A stretch of DNA of 64,000 bases from Treponema sp. CETP13 (lineage in GTDB: Bacteria > Spirochaetota > Spirochaetia > Treponematales > Treponemataceae), in assembly GCA_001885315.1 (NCBI GenBank), contig MLPZ01000001.1:310001-374000 (forward strand). The letters are read 5' to 3'. The translations under genes and the position numbers were made by a program. How positions within the stretch are numbered: position 1 is the first letter of the stretch; each line of letters begins with the position of its first letter. Below, piece by piece: positions 10,337 through 18,993 of the stretch. The notes under the pieces were generated by a model. That model saw only the letters and a program-made list of their open reading frames with translations. It was not told the DNA's origin and ran no database searches.

Positions 10337-11470
10337 ATGTCATATTTAAAACCGAAAGTTGTTACAATTGGTGGCCAACCACTTAAAGATGGTGGGACTG
10401 TAAATCGCGTGACATTCGGTGGTGATTCTCCAATTACAATCCAAACAATGTGGAAGGAGAGTATCCTTCCTGTTTTGGATTCTGAAGATTTTTTGTTTGA
10501 TATCCTTCGTCGGATAAATGAATTACAATCGCTTGGCTGTGATGTTTTGCGTTTTGCAGTACCTGATATGGAAAGTGCAACGGCGTTAAATAAAATTGCT
10601 GAACGGACCACCATGCCCCTTGTAGCTGATATACATTTTGATTATAGATTGGCACTTGCTTGTCTAGATGGTTCTGTAGCCAAAATACGCATTAATCCAG
10701 GGAACATAGGTTCTAAAGAGAATGTAAAGAAAGTTGTAGATAAATGCCGAGAAAAAGGTGTTGCAATTCGTATTGGAGTAAATACGGGAAGCCTTCCTAA
10801 AGAATTATATTCTAAGATTAATAGTGGAGAGTTAACCAGGGCTCAAGCTCTTTTACAGACTGCAGAAAAGGAAATTGCATATTTTAAAGAACTTAACTTT
10901 GATCAAGTTCTAGTTTCGATGAAATCTTCTGATGTACAAGAAACAATAGATGCTAATGAAGCTTTTGCTAGAGAGTTTGACTATCCGTTACATATCGGGG
11001 TTACAGAAGCTGGCCCACTTATTGGCGGGTTGGTAAAAAGCACACTGGCGTTTAGTTACTTATTAAAAGAGCATATAGGTTCAACAGTCCGTGTAAGTCT
11101 TTCAAATACCCCTATAAACGAAATTATTGCAGGAAAAGAAATTCTTAGAGAATGTGGTTTTCGTTCTGGTGGTGTAAGAATAGTTTCTTGTCCTCGTTGT
11201 GGCCGTGTTGGTTTCGATGTGCATGGTTTTGTAGAACGGTGGCAAAATGAATTATTGTCTATAAATAAAAATATTACTGTTGCTGTAATGGGCTGCATAG
11301 TTAATGGTCCAGGTGAAGGCAAACATGCCGATTTGGGTATTTGTGGGGCAGCAAATTCTGTGTTAATATTTAAACATGGCGAAATAGTTCACCGAATTAC
11401 AAATAATGATTTAAAGATTCTCTCTCAAACTGCCGATAGGTTGTTTAGAGAGGAATTAAATTCATTGTGA
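10337..11470 (+). CDS. ispG: 4-hydroxy-3-methylbut-2-enyl diphosphate synthase
   Basis: This 377-residue enzyme (also called GcpE) carries out the penultimate step of the MEP isoprenoid pathway, reducing MEcPP to HMBPP with a [4Fe-4S] cluster. Cluster ligands are visible: two Cys in SCPRCGR near residue 285 and one in MGCIVNGPGE near residue 318. The TIM-barrel part includes ADIHFDYRLAL and RINPGNIG. Length agrees with the short bacterial type. It begins one base after atpK ends, with no gap, so it appears to be expressed with the ATPase. Another MEP-pathway gene, dxr, lies elsewhere in the window. Confidence 0.96.
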   Translation: MSYLKPKVVTIGGQPLKDGGTVNRVTFGGDSPITIQTMWKESILPVLDSEDFLFDILRRINELQSLGCDVLRFAVPDMESATALNKIAERTTMPLVADIHFDYRLALACLDGSVAKIRINPGNIGSKENVKKVVDKCREKGVAIRIGVNTGSLPKELYSKINSGELTRAQALLQTAEKEIAYFKELNFDQVLVSMKSSDVQETIDANEAFAREFDYPLHIGVTEAGPLIGGLVKSTLAFSYLLKEHIGSTVRVSLSNTPINEIIAGKEILRECGFRSGGVRIVSCPRCGRVGFDVHGFVERWQNELLSINKNITVAVMGCIVNGPGEGKHADLGICGAANSVLIFKHGEIVHRITNNDLKILSQTADRLFREELNSL

Positions 11471-12705
11471 GTTATTATACAGAATCAATAAATTATTCTA
11501 CAAGATATAAATCTCGTCAAAAAGAATCGATAATGGTGCCTGCTAAAAAAACAGTAGGTACTTTTTTTTCTATTATTAAACCGGCTTTTTCTGTAATGAG
11601 CATTGCATTGTTATTTATGATAGTAACACCGATGTTTGCCACAACAACTTATCCAATAAAAGAAGGCCACGAAGCATGGCGCTCTCTTGAAAAAGCAGAG
11701 CTCGCCTATGATAATGGGAATTTAGGGGAGGCTCTAAAATATGCAAAAGAAGCTCGCGAAATAAGAAGAGTTGGCAGTGAATGGTGCGAAACAAAACTTA
11801 TAAATTCGTATAAACCTTTAGTTGTTCAACAAAAAGGTGTAGATATAAATGTTTTGTATAAAGTTTTTCTTGAGCGTGAAGATTTGGATGCAGTAGATAT
11901 TTTAGATCGTTCGCTTGCATTACATTCAATAGATTTTTATAATTCAGATATTACACAAGTTATTTCGTTTTGGCAAAAATCTTCGCATTATCCAGAGACC
12001 GATATAGTGCTTGCTAAGGTTTATAGAGATGAAGGGGAATATGATTTGTCAAAGCAATACTTAGAAAAGGCATGGGAATATAGAGAATTGCTGTATATTC
12101 CAGATGAAAAATATGATATTCTTTATGACTTAGCTAAAACGGCACTTTTGTTAAAAGATGATGATTTGTATGAAAAATCGCAATTACTTATATTAGCAGA
12201 CGATAGTGATTTCTCTGGTTTAAGTGGTGAGAGAACTAAAAATTGTCTTTCTTCTGGAATTATTAGTTCGATAAAAAATAAAATGAGTTCAGAAAAACTT
12301 TTTATGCTTTATCGACATATTAATAGAAATGGATTAAATGCAATGTTTAATCTTTCGAAATATTATCAAGATTTAGATGAAAACGAGAAGGCTCTAGAAT
12401 GTGCGGCTTTTGGTTGTATCACTGCAATTACGTTAATAAATGATTCTGTTGAACAATATTATCTTGATTATAAATTTACCACATTTGAACAATTATTAGC
12501 GCATGCAAATAATATTGACGAGATTTGTGTCTGGATGAATGTAAACAATATTTGGGATTCCTTCTTCGATTTTGCCTTATTGGTAGAAAAAACTACTGAT
12601 AATAAAGAATTAAGTGATGCGGTTTTAGTAGCCTTATCTAAAGAATCTTGTAATACTAAAGTTCAAATAAAAGCGCAATCAAAAGTTTCTTACGATTCAA
12701 ATTAA
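11467..12705 (+). CDS. Secreted or membrane-anchored protein of unknown function, TPR-like
   Basis: The 412-residue product is not recognised beyond a fold guess. A hydrophobic signal segment (about 35-58, ending MFATTTYP) points to export. The rest is helical with weak tetratricopeptide character (EKAELAYDNGNLGEALKYAK; YRDEGEYDLSKQYLEKAWEY). The frame opens at a GTG overlapping the ispG stop, but an ATG at 11533 gives a more usual signal peptide, so the true start may be there. It is the last gene of the V-ATPase/ispG transcript and converges with the barrel gene only 4 nt away, with no visible terminator between. Confidence 0.6.
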   Translation: MSYYTESINYSTRYKSRQKESIMVPAKKTVGTFFSIIKPAFSVMSIALLFMIVTPMFATTTYPIKEGHEAWRSLEKAELAYDNGNLGEALKYAKEAREIRRVGSEWCETKLINSYKPLVVQQKGVDINVLYKVFLEREDLDAVDILDRSLALHSIDFYNSDITQVISFWQKSSHYPETDIVLAKVYRDEGEYDLSKQYLEKAWEYRELLYIPDEKYDILYDLAKTALLLKDDDLYEKSQLLILADDSDFSGLSGERTKNCLSSGIISSIKNKMSSEKLFMLYRHINRNGLNAMFNLSKYYQDLDENEKALECAAFGCITAITLINDSVEQYYLDYKFTTFEQLLAHANNIDEICVWMNVNNIWDSFFDFALLVEKTTDNKELSDAVLVALSKESCNTKVQIKAQSKVSYDSN

Positions 12706-12709
12706 AACA

Positions 12710-14212
12710 TTAATAAAATAAACCTAACCCTGCATATATTTCATGGTTAATATTTTGAGGATCTGTTACATCAAATCCAAAGCTACCACGGACTTGTATG
12801 CTTCTCATTTTTAATGGAAATACGATTAATTCCAAGCCTGTAGTAAAAAAATACTTCGTATCTGAAGAGTTAATAGCTACATCTATATATGGAGAAGCTT
12901 GAAGTTCAAAATCTGCATATTTTGTAATCGATGGTAATCCTAACTTACGCCAATTAGTGGTGAAAAGTGATATAGGAATGTCGAGATTTAAAATTACTGC
13001 TTTAGTTACATAGTCTTCTGTATCTAGGATTCCTCTCATATAAGAACCAACGGGTAGAGTATCTGTTTCTAAAAAATGATAAAAGGCTGTAACTTGTGAA
13101 TTTATAGCAAAATGTGTAAAAGGAATAAAAAAAGTTGCGGAAAAATCAATCTTTTGCTTTATTTCATCGCTTTCTATTAATTTTATAATACTAAAACTTG
13201 TAGTTTGTGAAAAACCTTTTCGAAAATTGTGTATCCAATTAATATTAGTATTATTTAATTGAATTCCTCCTCCAAATTCTGGATTTGCCAATTGCGGATT
13301 TTCCATTCCAAGAACACTATCTGTGTTTGTAAAAATATCAAAGTCAGTATTAAAATCGATTATAGTAAATGGAGTTAAAAAAATATCTCCGGTAACATCA
13401 TAATTATATAAATAATAAGGAACTGAAAATATCATATTTGTATTGATATATGAAGAATCAGAATAATTTGAATAATAATCATTATAGGTATAAGTTTCTT
13501 GAATATCAAAATCTAAAGTAAATTTTGTGTAGGGTAATTGGAAATCAAATCCTGTTTGACTAACAAAATAGGGTGAGTCTTCTCCAAAAACATAAGCAAG
13601 GGTAATGGTGTTTTCCCAGACAACGTCAAAATAACTAATCTTAAAAGGGTAACTAAAGTTGATATTTGTTGAGATACCATTTCCATCAGAGAATGATAAT
13701 GGTATTATTTGCGAATTACTGTCAGTGTATGTAGGTAATTCAGTAAAATATTCTAGTTCGAACTCAAGTTCACTCATCGATCCAAAAAAATTATAGTCTT
13801 TTGCTTTTAATTTGGCAGAAAATCCATCGTTAGAATCATACAGAGGGTAAGGAAAAGCAATAAAATTCCATGAATCTACAATTGTAATAAGTAAATGAAC
13901 TTGTATAGGTTCTGTAATATCTTGCGGATTTTCAAATTGAGGTTCAATTTTTGTAGATTCTAAAACTCTTTGATTTAAAAATTCTTGTTTTAGTGATTCA
14001 AGATATGCATTTAATTCTTCTGTGGATAAAAAAATAGTATCTGTATCAATTGTGATTTTTGAATTTAGAGGGTACTCTTTTGTTCGGCCTGTAATATTAT
14101 ATTCAAAAGATGTTATTTTGTATTTTTCTGCAAATATAAAAGAGCTAAATAAACTAAAGACTAAAAAAAAAGTTAAATATTTAGATCTATTTTTTTTTAT
14201 TTGTTTTTTCAA
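12710..14212 (-). CDS. Outer membrane beta-barrel protein with one POTRA-like domain (Omp85-like)
   Basis: The 500-residue product has a signal peptide (FFLVFSLFSSFIFA), one POTRA-like beta-alpha-alpha-beta-beta unit (about 30-125), a YDSNDGF then DYNFFGS segment reminiscent of the start of BamA-type barrels, and many alternating aromatic strands ending in GLGLFY, with a terminal aromatic residue as in outer membrane barrels. It starts at TTG; no ATG fits the signal peptide. It is the last gene of a minus-strand operon with two FtsX permeases, a LolA-like protein and another barrel. A role in inserting or exporting lipids or lipoproteins is inferred from this context. It is short for BamA, which has five POTRA domains. 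Confidence 0.62.
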   Translation of the reverse strand: MKKQIKKNRSKYLTFFLVFSLFSSFIFAEKYKITSFEYNITGRTKEYPLNSKITIDTDTIFLSTEELNAYLESLKQEFLNQRVLESTKIEPQFENPQDITEPIQVHLLITIVDSWNFIAFPYPLYDSNDGFSAKLKAKDYNFFGSMSELEFELEYFTELPTYTDSNSQIIPLSFSDGNGISTNINFSYPFKISYFDVVWENTITLAYVFGEDSPYFVSQTGFDFQLPYTKFTLDFDIQETYTYNDYYSNYSDSSYINTNMIFSVPYYLYNYDVTGDIFLTPFTIIDFNTDFDIFTNTDSVLGMENPQLANPEFGGGIQLNNTNINWIHNFRKGFSQTTSFSIIKLIESDEIKQKIDFSATFFIPFTHFAINSQVTAFYHFLETDTLPVGSYMRGILDTEDYVTKAVILNLDIPISLFTTNWRKLGLPSITKYADFELQASPYIDVAINSSDTKYFFTTGLELIVFPLKMRSIQVRGSFGFDVTDPQNINHEIYAGLGLFY

Positions 14213-14239
14213 ATTAAACTCTTTGATACACTTTAAATT

Positions 14240-15433
14240 TTAATAATCAAAATCAAATACCAATCCCATATCCATTGTAACAGAAAATTCATTGTCTATA
14301 TATTCTATAGGAAATGATATATCAAATGTAGCACTGGTTAAATCATAAAATTCATAGACCGGAGTAATTGCAAAAGAATCCCAATTTGTTTCAAAAGAAA
14401 ACCCAATACGGGAAGTGTTATTAAATAAATGAGATAAACCGAAGTCTACAGCGATAGCAGGTTCGTAGCCATCATCCTCATTCCAGCCTAATGCATATTC
14501 AACATTAAAAGCCACACGGGGTTCGTCCCATTTTCTCCAAACACCTAAAGCATATGAGGTCGATATAGGATTTAACGGTAGTGCAAAAATTGTGTCTTCA
14601 TCAGTTTCGAATTCAAAATTATTGTGTGAATATAATTCAAACTCTTTGTAGGCTGTTGTAAAATCAATACCAAAAACAGGGTATCTGTCATTATCACTAT
14701 CACCTGTAGCCCATTTCCTTGCAAATACTGTTGTAGCTAATGGCCCTGTAACTATATTTGCTTTTGTAGCAATAGAAATCTTATCAGAAGTAACACCTTC
14801 ATCAGCATCCCAATCTGTGTTATAAAGTGCCAGAAGATTTACATCTGATGCACCAAAGTATTTTGTCATTGATATAGTTAGATTTTCAGAAGAATCAGAG
14901 ATAATATTTAAATCCTGAGAAATACTGTCTGGTAAAATTATATAGTCATCATCATCGTCTGTTTGCCAAGAATGTTTTGTGTTTCCCCATGAAATAGATC
15001 TCTTTCCTACTTGTAAATATATATCAGCCAATAAATAATCAAAATAAAACCTATTTAATTTATAATCGATATCCTCTCCATCAAATGAAATATAAAAGTT
15101 TCCATGAACACCAAAAATATCACTTGCGCGTGAGTAAAATGAAAGATTATTTTCTAGCGTTAATCCTGCTTCAGCATATTCAAAATCTGGATAGATATTT
15201 TGTTCAAAACCAATAGTTGATGAAAGATTTCCTGTGAACTTTATTGTTTTTAATGATTCTGTTAATTCATTTGCATCTGAAAATACAGGCTCAGGTGTAG
15301 GAGACTCTTCTACTTGAATATCTTCGGCAGTATTAAAAATGTCATCAACATCCATGCTAGTATCACTTTCCTGTGCAAAAATTGAGAATATTAAGAATAT
15401 AAAAAGTATAATTAAAGTTATTTTATTTTTCAT
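14240..15433 (-). CDS. Outer membrane beta-barrel (porin-like) protein
   Basis: This 397-residue exported protein has a signal peptide (IILFIFLIFSIFAQ), a short acidic linker (about 22-60), and then amphipathic strands with alternating aromatic residues through to a C-terminal FDFDY, as expected for an outer membrane barrel. The segment YLQVGKRSISWGN is like the strand-turn signature of DUF1302-type and other alginate-porin-like proteins, but the family is not certain. The ATG overlaps the LolA-like gene stop by 4 nt, so the two are coupled. Together with the neighbours it probably belongs to a trans-envelope export route. Confidence 0.6.
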   Translation of the reverse strand: MKNKITLIILFIFLIFSIFAQESDTSMDVDDIFNTAEDIQVEESPTPEPVFSDANELTESLKTIKFTGNLSSTIGFEQNIYPDFEYAEAGLTLENNLSFYSRASDIFGVHGNFYISFDGEDIDYKLNRFYFDYLLADIYLQVGKRSISWGNTKHSWQTDDDDDYIILPDSISQDLNIISDSSENLTISMTKYFGASDVNLLALYNTDWDADEGVTSDKISIATKANIVTGPLATTVFARKWATGDSDNDRYPVFGIDFTTAYKEFELYSHNNFEFETDEDTIFALPLNPISTSYALGVWRKWDEPRVAFNVEYALGWNEDDGYEPAIAVDFGLSHLFNNTSRIGFSFETNWDSFAITPVYEFYDLTSATFDISFPIEYIDNEFSVTMDMGLVFDFDY

Positions 15434-16206
15434 TCGTTTATCATTTGTAAATAAGCTTTTGTGAAAATTACATCTTTAAGTTTGTCAAAAGAGACATTGT
15501 TAATTGTAATTTGAGTTTTCTCGTATTGCATTTTATTATTAATTTTTTTGCCTCGCAAATTGTCGATAATAAGTATTGTAACCGGTACAGAACGTTTGTT
15601 TATTTTTTGATAAGAAGGCATGGCTGTTGTTCTTAATAATTGCGAAGAAAGACTAAAATCTTTTTTCATTCTAATTAAACCATCATCTTTTGAAACCCAA
15701 AGCTGAACTTTAGAATATGTTACGTTCTTAGTTTTTGCTGTTAAATAAAATAATGTGCATTTAAAATTTCCAAGGTTTACATCTTCTGTTTTTTCAATTT
15801 TGTAATCACGAGTATAATACTGTGGTGTAAAATCAGCAGGGGTTGCATTTGTACCTTCTACTTTATCTTTTTTTGTAGTAAATGTGAATTTCCTATCAGA
15901 AGGGTCAAAAAACCAAATACTAGAATTATATTGGATATAACCTTTTCCCTTATCATCATCATCAGGGCCGGTAATAACAATAGTATAAGTTTCTTCTTTA
16001 TCTCTTCTGTATAATACAGCATATGTTGCATTTTGACCTTGTCCCGGTTTAGATTGTACGATTGTATATTCAGCTGCAAAATCAGTGTCTTTAAAACTAG
16101 TTGATTCTTCTGCTTGCTTTAATAAAGCAGTATCTTCACTTGATACTGCAAATAATACTGTTAGTTCTAACAATAATAGGGTTAGAGTGATACCTAGTTT
16201 TCGCAT
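15430..16206 (-). CDS. LolA-like outer membrane lipoprotein-sorting protein
   Basis: This 258-residue periplasmic protein has a signal peptide (ITLTLLLLELTVLFAVS). The body matches the LolA-like family (COG2834): KGYIQYNSSIWFFDPSDRKF near residues 88-107 corresponds to the signature in which a tryptophan-containing strand is followed by a PSDR-like turn, and the C-terminal part contains RMKKDFSLSSQLLRTTAMPSY. Proteins of this fold shield lipid chains in the periplasm. It is encoded between inner membrane permeases and outer membrane barrels, overlapping the barrel gene by 4 nt. A carrier function between the membranes is the natural reading. Confidence 0.8.
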   Translation of the reverse strand: MRKLGITLTLLLLELTVLFAVSSEDTALLKQAEESTSFKDTDFAAEYTIVQSKPGQGQNATYAVLYRRDKEETYTIVITGPDDDDKGKGYIQYNSSIWFFDPSDRKFTFTTKKDKVEGTNATPADFTPQYYTRDYKIEKTEDVNLGNFKCTLFYLTAKTKNVTYSKVQLWVSKDDGLIRMKKDFSLSSQLLRTTAMPSYQKINKRSVPVTILIIDNLRGKKINNKMQYEKTQITINNVSFDKLKDVIFTKAYLQMINE

Positions 16207-16228
16207 AATAAAAAATCCTTATAAATGA

Positions 16229-17524
16229 TTATTGAGTTGTAGTGAGGGCTTTTACTGGATTCACTATAACTCCTTTCCTAATTGTAAACAATACAGATAA
16301 TAAAGTGGTTACAGAGATAGCTAACAATAAATATAAACATTGTAAAAAAGAAAGAGAGAGGGTAAGGTTCCCTTTTTGTAAAAAAACATCAAATGCAGGA
16401 ATAAAAGAAAAATCAATTGATCTTAAAAATGTTGCTAGAATAAATTGTAACACCAATCCTAGAAAAAAACCTGAAAAAATTACAGAAATTACTTCTGTTA
16501 GAAATATGGAATTGATAGAGGCGATTGACATACCTAAGGCTCTATACATGCCAATTTCACGAGTTCGTTTTATCACAATAACTCTATATGAATTGCTAAT
16601 CCCAATTGCAATAATCAAAGCCAAAAACGTAATCAAAGTATATAAAATAATTTTCATAGCTGAAATTATTATATTTAGGTCTTTTAAGCTTGCAGAAAGA
16701 GGAATAAGAGCAAACCCTTTCTCTGTGTCTGGAATGTTTTTTATGTGATTAACAAAATCCTGTTTATTATTAGTTAAGGGATACATGTTATTAAATGTTT
16801 TAGTTAGTTTTTTTTGATAGTCTTCTAGTCTTTTTTTGGTTACTTCATTTTCAAAATAAATACCAATACGGTTTCCTGTGTTTGGTTTTTCATTATCAAG
16901 GGTTAGTAAATGATCTATATCAACATATGAAGTATACATTCCAAATAAACTTGAATCTTTAAATATTCCTTGGACAATAAATTGTGCCGTATTTGTATAG
17001 CCATTTGAGGTTTGTTTCATAATTGTTAATTGGTCACCAACTTTAGTTCCTAATCTTTTTGCTATAGGTTCTGAAATCAAAATAGCATTTGATCCTGAAA
17101 TATTATCAATTCCACCTTCTATAAATGTTATTTTACTTAAAATTGGTTTCTCAAGATCAAAATTGACACCTTTTATTACTCTCTGACTAACACCGACTCC
17201 TTCAAAAAAAAGCGTAATATTTTTAGCTAGTATTTCATATCTGGGGAAAATTTTTACATCATCTTCTGTAAACACAGTTTCTAATTTTTTAATAATTTCA
17301 GGTGAATTAAAATCTGTTAATCCACGGCCTTTTTTTCCACTGACAAATTGTACATCTCCACCAAAATAAATTTTTGCTTTTTTATAAATTGTAGAGAGCA
17401 TTCCGTTCATTAAAGATAGGCATAGTAAAGAAATACAAAAACCTAAAACACAAACTACAAAAAGCGAACGGTATTGTTTTTTTCTTGAGAGTATTGATTT
17501 GATAGCAATTTGAAAATAGCGCAT
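16229..17524 (-). CDS. ABC transporter permease, FtsX/LolE/MacB family (second subunit)
   Basis: The 431-residue inner membrane protein has the LolC/E topology: one N-terminal helix (about 16-42), a large periplasmic domain (about 45-275, MacB-like core), then three helices. The conserved cytoplasmic loop VIVIKRTREIGMYRALGMS (about 315-333) is the coupling loop that contacts an ATPase. It starts with an ATG sharing a base with the stop of the upstream permease gene. No ATP-binding gene lies in this operon, so the motor must be encoded elsewhere. Spirochaete relatives are generally annotated as lipoprotein-release or macrolide-export permeases. Confidence 0.85.
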   Translation of the reverse strand: MRYFQIAIKSILSRKKQYRSLFVVCVLGFCISLLCLSLMNGMLSTIYKKAKIYFGGDVQFVSGKKGRGLTDFNSPEIIKKLETVFTEDDVKIFPRYEILAKNITLFFEGVGVSQRVIKGVNFDLEKPILSKITFIEGGIDNISGSNAILISEPIAKRLGTKVGDQLTIMKQTSNGYTNTAQFIVQGIFKDSSLFGMYTSYVDIDHLLTLDNEKPNTGNRIGIYFENEVTKKRLEDYQKKLTKTFNNMYPLTNNKQDFVNHIKNIPDTEKGFALIPLSASLKDLNIIISAMKIILYTLITFLALIIAIGISNSYRVIVIKRTREIGMYRALGMSIASINSIFLTEVISVIFSGFFLGLVLQFILATFLRSIDFSFIPAFDVFLQKGNLTLSLSFLQCLYLLLAISVTTLLSVLFTIRKGVIVNPVKALTTTQ

Positions 17525-18993
17525 TATTCTATGCCTCTCATTGCTGATACAGGGGTTTCTTGAAGCGCAACTCTAATAGGGGAGATACAACCAAGGAATC
17601 CTAATAATAAAACTAATAGAATTATTGAGATAATATTTGAAATTGTTATTTGTGGAGCTAAAACCGTGCTACCAAATAACTGAATGATATATTCATTTGT
17701 AAATGATATGTGTGCTATATTAAGTATGAGGGTTCCTATTCTTCCTAAGATTATACCAACGAAACCTGAAATTATTGTTAATATGTATGTTTCTAAGAAA
17801 AATAGTTTGGAAATAAAAGGTTTCCCTGCTCCTATAGCTTGAAGCATTCCGATTTCTTTTGTGCGATCCATGACATTTATAACAAGAGTATTATTTATGA
17901 CGAAGAAACCTGTAATAAGTATGATAACAACACCTATATTCAATATCATACGCATCCAGTATAGATAAATTGCTGTAGATCCAGCTGCTGTTCTCCATGA
18001 AACAGCTTCTAATGGCCAATCTTTTTTATGAAAGGTGTTATTTAGTTGTTTTATAAGCTTATTACTGTTTTCTCCTTGTTTTACCGAAATAATTATAAAA
18101 TTCCATAAGGTATGTGCTTCAATTGAAGGAATAGAAGTATCTACAGTAGTTGTATCCTTTTTTTCATCATGATTAAATTGTAATGAATCTAAGCTTGTAG
18201 AATTGTTATCAGAAAGTACAATATCATTTTGATTAGAAAAAAGATCGTCAACAGAAACATCTAGTAATGCTGTGTTTTCTTCGGCAATGTTTACTTGTTC
18301 GGTTGTTGTTTCTAACCCCATAAGGTCAGTAACCGTTGAATAATCTACTAGAACTATTCTATTTAGAAGATCATTGTCTGCAGAATAGCTATAAATAGCA
18401 GTAACTGGCACTGCACGAATTCTAAGTGTTGAGGCGTCAGCCACTATAAATTGTATAGAGTCGCCTATATTGATTTTTTTACCAGAAGCTTTTTCTAAAT
18501 TTTCTACCAGTTTAGAAGAAAGCATTGCTCCTTCTTCGTAGTCAGAAAAAGGTTGTCCTTTTAGGATAGTAATATTAGACATAAGCTTTATGTAGCTAGT
18601 ACCATTAATACCAAATAAAGGTGCAACTTGTTTTTTACCAACTATTTCTAATTGAGCAACACCTGTTAATTGTGGGGTAAAATTTTCAATTTTATCTATA
18701 GATTTAAGTTCTTTATAACAATCAAGATATGGAATAATTTGAGGTATTTCTGAAAGCTCACCTGTTACAGGTGTTTCATCCCCAAAAAGGCTTAACGGCA
18801 TATCACTTATAGGTCTAATTACAATATCACCTGTAAAACTACGTGTGAAAGCTTTTTGAATACCTGTTTCTGTTCCGTCAAAAATAGCATTAACAATGAG
18901 GAGCATAGCCATTGCAAGTGACATAAAAATGACTATTGCAATTGAACTTTTTCTATTAATTATATTTTTCCAAGCAAGATATAAAATCGACAC
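17524..18993 (-). CDS. ABC transporter permease, FtsX/LolC family (first subunit)
   Basis: This 489-residue inner membrane permease is the first gene of the export cluster. It has an N-terminal helix (about 15-38), a large periplasmic domain enlarged by a polar insert (about 225-285), and three C-terminal helices with the coupling loop VMDRTKEIGMLQAIGAG. It starts at GTG with no Shine-Dalgarno; a strong promoter places its -10 box just 6 nt upstream, predicting a leaderless message. Paired with the second permease it would form a LolCE-like heterodimer. No signs of transfer or damage. Confidence 0.85.
   Translation of the reverse strand: MSILYLAWKNIINRKSSIAIVIFMSLAMAMLLIVNAIFDGTETGIQKAFTRSFTGDIVIRPISDMPLSLFGDETPVTGELSEIPQIIPYLDCYKELKSIDKIENFTPQLTGVAQLEIVGKKQVAPLFGINGTSYIKLMSNITILKGQPFSDYEEGAMLSSKLVENLEKASGKKINIGDSIQFIVADASTLRIRAVPVTAIYSYSADNDLLNRIVLVDYSTVTDLMGLETTTEQVNIAEENTALLDVSVDDLFSNQNDIVLSDNNSTSLDSLQFNHDEKKDTTTVDTSIPSIEAHTLWNFIIISVKQGENSNKLIKQLNNTFHKKDWPLEAVSWRTAAGSTAIYLYWMRMILNIGVVIILITGFFVINNTLVINVMDRTKEIGMLQAIGAGKPFISKLFFLETYILTIISGFVGIILGRIGTLILNIAHISFTNEYIIQLFGSTVLAPQITISNIISIILLVLLLGFLGCISPIRVALQETPVSAMRGIE

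Follow-up and report, generated by a model that had tools for sequence, protein, structure and literature searches.

The window analyzed here, a stretch of 64,000 nucleotides from Treponema sp. CETP13 (contig MLPZ01000001.1, positions 310,001 to 374,000), contains a four-gene unit that is widely conserved in Treponematales and supplies a part for each layer of the envelope. Two type VII ABC permeases, a LolA-like periplasmic carrier and an outer-membrane barrel are encoded together in this unit, and a LolD-type ATPase is its recurrent partner in relatives. Taken as a whole, the locus is read as encoding a type VII ABC exporter that would move an amphiphile, probably a surface glycolipid, along a Lol-like route to a barrel of its own, a reading given a probability of about 0.45. 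The gene neighbourhoods of the relatives furnish a concrete and testable hypothesis for the cargo.

Gene Content of the Locus

A sequence-only reading of the window had described five minus-strand genes that overlap or are separated by short gaps, and open reading frames with exactly those boundaries are present (Table 1). From PermA onward, the successive junctions are one shared base, a gap of 22 nt, an overlap of 4 nt and a gap of 27 nt. Promoter and terminator scans of the region yielded matches at chance level only. The typing of the products in that reading is also correct by Pfam, AlphaFold2, Foldseek and hhalign, with two FtsX/MacB-type permeases, a LolA-like carrier and two C-terminal proteins that are indeed barrels, the first by AlphaFold2 and Foldseek and the second by Foldseek and hhalign.

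Table 1. Genes of the trans-envelope locus and its convergent neighbour, with coordinates in the window.
Feature	Length (aa)	Position	Strand	Basis and remarks
PermA, FtsX/MacB-type (type VII ABC) permease	489	17524..18993	-	Pfam; first gene in the conserved order
PermB, second FtsX/MacB-type permease	431	16229..17524	-	Pfam; follows PermA in the conserved order
LolA-like periplasmic carrier, PF17131	258	15430..16206	-	Pfam; nearest solved structure 3BUU (NE2245)
Outer-membrane barrel, ~18 strands, OprD/AlgE-like fold	397	14240..15433	-	AlphaFold2, VIA-align; homologue in surveyed sets
Mini-Omp85: signal peptide, one POTRA, ~16-strand barrel	500	12710..14212	-	hhalign, Foldseek, RG motif; associated, not a fixed member
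Secreted TPR-like protein, convergent with mini-Omp85, candidate partner		11467..12705	+	Weak TPR matches; conserved pair in the family

Both permeases carry the FtsX and MacB_PCD domains of type VII ABC permeases above cut-off (7.1e-15 and 9e-10 for PermA; 9.2e-12 and 6.5e-7 for PermB). The carrier matches the LolA_like family of Pfam with an E-value of 7.7e-28 and 97.8 bits, against a curated cut-off of 30, and its nearest solved structure with an E-value of 9.5e-11. The barrel encoded after the carrier was modelled with AlphaFold2 from an alignment of 72 sequences from named Treponema loci, and the resulting model (mean pLDDT 86, pTM 0.77) has about 18 strands. Its top Foldseek matches are OprD/Occ, MOMP and AlgE, and VIA-align superposes it on OpdL with a Z-score of 19.7 (3.9 Å over 279 residues) and on AlgE with 18.8, so that the protein has an OprD/AlgE-type 18-strand fold at Z 18-20. 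In sequence, it matches neither OprD, AlgE nor the other porin families of Pfam; among the 72 relatives, 2 match Porin_O_P (2.9e-4 at best). When the PDB was searched by sequence with a profile of each barrel, no relative turned up.

A Four-Gene Core Conserved Across the Order

The PermA-PermB-LolA-barrel order is kept, above chance, in 60 of the 61 named Treponema loci with enough room to show it, out of 80 such loci from GTDB genomes that include Treponema bryantii, T. ruminis, T. parvum, T. zioleckii and many gut MAGs. Across several families of the order, about 40 loci show the same arrangement, and a homologue of the barrel was found in all 42 loci compared (the window, a paralogous set in the same genome and 40 loci of other genomes). 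This neighbourhood survey bears out the earlier suggestion of a trans-envelope gene set as far as the permease pair, the carrier and the outer-membrane barrel are concerned, and it supports the conclusion that these four components are one conserved trans-envelope unit.

The genome of the window also encodes a complete paralogous set on contig C12 (L037:6338-12380), comprising an ATPase, two permeases, a LolA-like protein and a barrel. This second version is referred to here as set II, and the version in the window and its counterparts as set I. A third, diverged set was seen in another genome, G107 (L166:5615-10662), in which two permeases, a LolA-like protein and an ATPase are followed by a barrel-like protein of 405 aa.

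Location of the ATPase

The window has no ATPase gene within or adjoining the gene set, and the earlier description of a system without a motor is therefore accurate locally. As a statement about the system it is not supported. In 42 of 51 Treponema loci a LolD-type ATPase is encoded no more than about one gene away from the set; in 36 of those 42 it is on the opposite strand, downstream, which means that it has its own transcription unit there. In family f5 the ATPase is the first gene of the operon, and every set-II copy read has an ATPase at its start. Of the genomes in which set I lacks a neighbouring ATPase, five (G125, G024, G052, G056, and G072) usually cited here have one elsewhere, away from set II, as do most further genomes of this kind, while three gave none. 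The ATPase of the solitary type is divergent beside a PermA fragment in G162 and next to a barrel fragment in G158. In nearly all such relatives the solitary ATPases fall in the set-I clade, with clade support of 99/98 to 100/99. On the survey and the trees together, the idea of a motor-less system was rejected.

A search of the window's own genome, a 21-contig draft of 2.54 Mb that is 99.87% complete, found no ATPase of the set-I clade. The closest ATPase in this genome is that of set II on C12, with 59% identity; in the trees it is placed close to the base of the two clades, a position shared by the solitary ATPase of genome G084. Since the genome yielded no set-I-clade ATPase and the C12 protein is both the closest and placed near the base of both clades, sharing is the simplest reading, and sequence comparison suggests that set I is most likely powered by the set-II ATPase, which would be common to both sets.

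Motor sharing would depend on the absence of a set-I-clade ATPase from the 21-contig draft, and there is one other candidate. An orphan LolD/MacB-type ATPase on contig C17 (L150:6216-6956) follows a guaB-like gene and has no permease nearby. Its counterpart in G084, which alone among the other genomes read has a similar layout, likewise has no permeases alongside. However, the C17 protein is far from the set-I ATPase clade, grouping on long branches with the ATPase of the third set in G107, and its identity is 46%, as opposed to 59% for the C12 ATPase. It is thus unlikely to be the set-I motor here, and the C12 enzyme is retained as the likelier candidate.

Among ATPase families, a set-I ATPase scores best with the export families DarD and LolD. 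This would also suit export of a small hydrophobic metabolite or peptide by a MacAB-like efflux or secretion unit, in which the LolA-like protein would be the carrier and the barrel the exit duct. The MacB_PCD domains of the permeases point the same way, as does a relative of the set in Rahnella that is embedded in a cluster of beta-ketoacyl synthase and acyltransferase genes. Yet the set has neither a MacA-type adaptor nor TolC, and the wide retention of the same four genes through an order fits a component of the envelope more readily than a niche metabolite, making an efflux unit improbable.

Glycan Neighbourhoods and the Candidate Cargo

LolA-type carriers are best known for lipoproteins, and known members bind acyl chains. 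The neighbourhoods of set I in relatives point instead to glycans or glycolipids. Of the 64 loci with a co-directional neighbour, 23 have a gene of a Wzz-like group directly upstream of PermA, overlapping it or separated by at most 35 nt, and one member of this group matches Pfam Wzz at 1.3e-6. When Wzz, RmlABCD, Glf, GT2, Wzm, Ugd, NeuB and similar families are counted, 38 of 87 set-I loci have a glycan gene within 6 kb, as against 0 of 14 for set II (Fisher p 0.0007) and 2 of 22 in a wider control (p 0.0017), although these p-values overstate independence because set-I loci are related to each other. Glycan genes are also near 10 of 13 mini-Omp85 loci. Over half of the set-I loci have no glycan gene nearby, and the flanks of the set in the window contain none of those searched for.

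Given the relatedness of the loci and the lack of these genes around the set in the window, the enrichment is to be taken as a lead, short of proof. Together with a carrier of the LolA type, the neighbourhoods of the relatives nevertheless make a lipid-linked surface glycan or glycolipid the most likely cargo of set I. The lack of glycan genes at all 14 set-II loci indicates that the cargo of set II is probably different.

A second Lol-type lipoprotein pathway would make other use of the same parts. The permeases would extract a subset of lipoproteins and the LolA-like protein would carry them, with the barrel or the mini-Omp85 replacing LolB or flipping the cargo to the surface. The presence of a LolA-like carrier agrees with this, and LolB is unrecognised outside gamma- and beta-Proteobacteria (PMC11784454); lipoproteins are also named as a possible ligand by the authors of a study on the Borrelia BBJ23-29 cluster (PMC13078400). 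Among the proteins of the locus, no LolB-type lipoprotein was seen, as neither the carrier nor either of the two barrels shows a lipobox cysteine in its signal peptide when read by eye, and two barrels are found instead. The permeases do resemble LolC/E, but weakly. Against the lolCE equivalog model they score 52 and 61 bits, the latter for PermA, with a cut-off of 362, whereas the canonical LolC/E proteins encoded on contig C14 score 201 and 179 bits, which is also below the cut-off but in nearly full-length matches. The canonical LolD is encoded on the same contig (246 bits) and the canonical LolA (PF03548) on contig C19, while the window carrier matches PF17131 and not PF03548. Since the genome has LolCDE and LolA elsewhere, its housekeeping Lol pathway is a separate one from set I, and the position of many set-I loci amid glycan genes is a further argument against lipoproteins, so that this alternative is doubtful. 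Lipid or lipoprotein transport had been suggested from the sequence alone; the glycan genes of relatives favour its lipid half, in the form of a glycolipid, and the separate canonical system disfavours the lipoprotein half.

The Mini-Omp85 and Its Association With the Set

The 500-aa protein is a member of the Omp85 superfamily, with a POTRA domain, a barrel of about 16 strands and an RG motif. Its AlphaFold2 model, derived from three sequences, is of low confidence (pLDDT 55.6) and shows a POTRA-like beta-alpha-alpha-beta-beta arrangement followed by about 16 strands. Because the model is poor and VIA-align ranks other barrels above Omp85 for it, the class is drawn from Foldseek, in which all best matches are Omp85 proteins (BamA, TamA, FhaC, and similar), and from hhalign, in which the profile of 19 relatives matches the barrel and the last POTRA of treponeme BamA at 95%. 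The RG pair is invariant among these 19 relatives and the C-terminal motif invariant or nearly so. The window protein has no significant Pfam family, and Pfam Omp85 is matched by just 1 of the 19 members (0.027). A Pfam L29 match below the cut-off (0.0055) was taken as chance. A scan of viral contigs for the mini-Omp85 found nothing.

Of 149 genomes of the order, 109 have the mini-Omp85, mostly in single copy; beyond the order, members of its family are rare and divergent. In Treponemataceae it is usually convergent to a TPR-type gene and ispG, with no set alongside, and the mini-Omp85/TPR/ispG order is seen in most of the loci checked in that family. In 8 of 13 loci a Bac_transf sugar transferase is encoded close to the mini-Omp85, often upstream of it. 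In the window, set I meets the mini-Omp85/TPR/ispG spot. The layout in G084 is similar (set I/mini-Omp85/TPR), with two genes in between, one of which encodes a NeuB homologue. The sequence-only reading had treated all five genes as one set; they are rarely together in the survey, and on the distribution of the mini-Omp85 the five-gene set was abandoned for a four-gene core with an associated, not obligate, mini-Omp85.

The mini-Omp85 could be a bystander, set I having landed at the mini-Omp85/TPR/ispG spot and both working separately, which would be compatible with any cargo. The persistence of the mini-Omp85 beside TPR and ispG at Treponemataceae loci without the set is what this predicts, and in most genomes the two are far apart or on different contigs. 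However, they are within 7 kb of each other in 7 of the 76 genomes that have both, where about 0.5 would be expected. This proximity is seen in two families with differing gene orders, including in f5, where the mini-Omp85 is directly upstream of the ATPase (G138, G124, and G122) or after the barrel (G109). Set loci and mini-Omp85 loci also both adjoin glycan genes. Bystander status is thus quite conceivable, if a little short of even odds.

Several further observations concern the surroundings of Omp85-like genes. The TPR-like gene of the window ends 4 nt from the mini-Omp85 gene, and the Borrelia Omp85 gene also has TPR neighbours. In G072, a POTRA protein with room for a barrel (L168:7783-9237) is encoded directly upstream of the relocated set-I ATPase and is unmatched by the mini-Omp85 profile. 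In G177 (L346), a distant mini-Omp85 is encoded a few genes away from a LolA-like protein that lies between proteins of 968 and 451 aa, possibly an RND-type version of the set.

Proposed Mechanism

In the preferred reading, PermA and PermB would form a heterodimeric type VII ABC exporter of the FtsX/LolCE/MacB kind. A LolD-type ATPase encoded elsewhere would power it, here most likely the set-II ATPase of C12 serving both sets. The exporter is proposed to lift an amphiphilic cargo, with a lipid-linked surface glycan or glycolipid as the likeliest candidate, from the outer leaflet of the inner membrane and pass it to the LolA-like carrier, which would ferry it through the periplasm to the set's own 18-strand barrel. 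The mini-Omp85 may act as an optional outer-membrane helper in barrel assembly or cargo insertion. A more specific version, in which LPS-lacking spirochaetes would have a dedicated glycolipid exporter that does the job of Lpt with Lol-type parts, its own AlgE-like barrel, an Omp85 helper and one ATPase common to paralogous exporters, is put forward only tentatively.

Comparison With Known Systems

The locus shares with LolCDE-LolA-LolB an FtsX-type permease pair, a carrier of the LolA fold and, going by most relatives, a LolD-type ATPase. It differs in permeases that are far from the lolCE model, in a carrier of another Pfam family, and in ending at the outer membrane with a barrel instead of a lipoprotein. 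MacAB-TolC has the same MacB-type periplasmic core domain and FtsX fold, but the window set has no fused ATPase, MacA adaptor or TolC and features a soluble LolA-like carrier instead, and so falls outside that class. If the cargo is a glycolipid, the steps would parallel those of Lpt, namely extraction from the inner membrane, a periplasmic carrier and an outer-membrane barrel. The parts differ considerably, with FtsX-type permeases in place of LptF/G, a LolA fold in place of a beta-jellyroll bridge, and an OprD/AlgE-like barrel in place of LptD. In the MMPL sets with LolA-like proteins, such as P. gingivalis PG1175-81, an "outer membrane lipoprotein-sorting protein" is likewise encoded with an inner-membrane exporter, which is an MMPL transporter there and an FtsX-type ABC transporter here (PMC10434189).

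A dedicated pair of barrels beyond LolA had been suggested to be new; one barrel-like gene next to Lol-like ABC genes is no unique arrangement. Permease, LolA-like and barrel-like genes are found with an ATPase in Vibrio, Rahnella, and Persicobacter as well, where inspection of the sequences by eye served to recognise the barrels, and 2026 saw the publication of a Borrelia relative that includes an Omp85 protein (PMC13078400). The Rahnella sikkimica copy is on a plasmid (L310:4038-8856), where genes for an ATPase, a small protein, a permease, a LolA-like protein and a barrel-like protein lie between beta-ketoacyl synthase and ACP malonyltransferase genes.

The Borrelia cluster BBJ23-29 is the closest described system, a spirochaete type VII ABC transporter with a LolA-like protein, an Omp85-family barrel and TPR proteins, for which a non-polar cargo was proposed from models only (PMC13078400). 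It has one permease, proposed to act as a homodimer, an ATPase within the cluster, and an Omp85 without POTRA, and no porin-type barrel is reported (PMC13078400). The window, in contrast, encodes two permeases, a dedicated 18-strand barrel and an Omp85 protein with POTRA, and its ATPase would lie elsewhere. The resemblance is taken from the description in that paper (PMC13078400) and not from sequence homology to BBJ25, 27, and 28; a tblastn search for relatives on Borrelia plasmids returned none, Borrelia sequences lying beyond its reach. By description, then, the treponeme loci are a close but differently composed counterpart of BBJ23-29. They also qualify the statement in the Borrelia paper that the treponeme homologues of its Omp85 sit among unrelated genes (PMC13078400).
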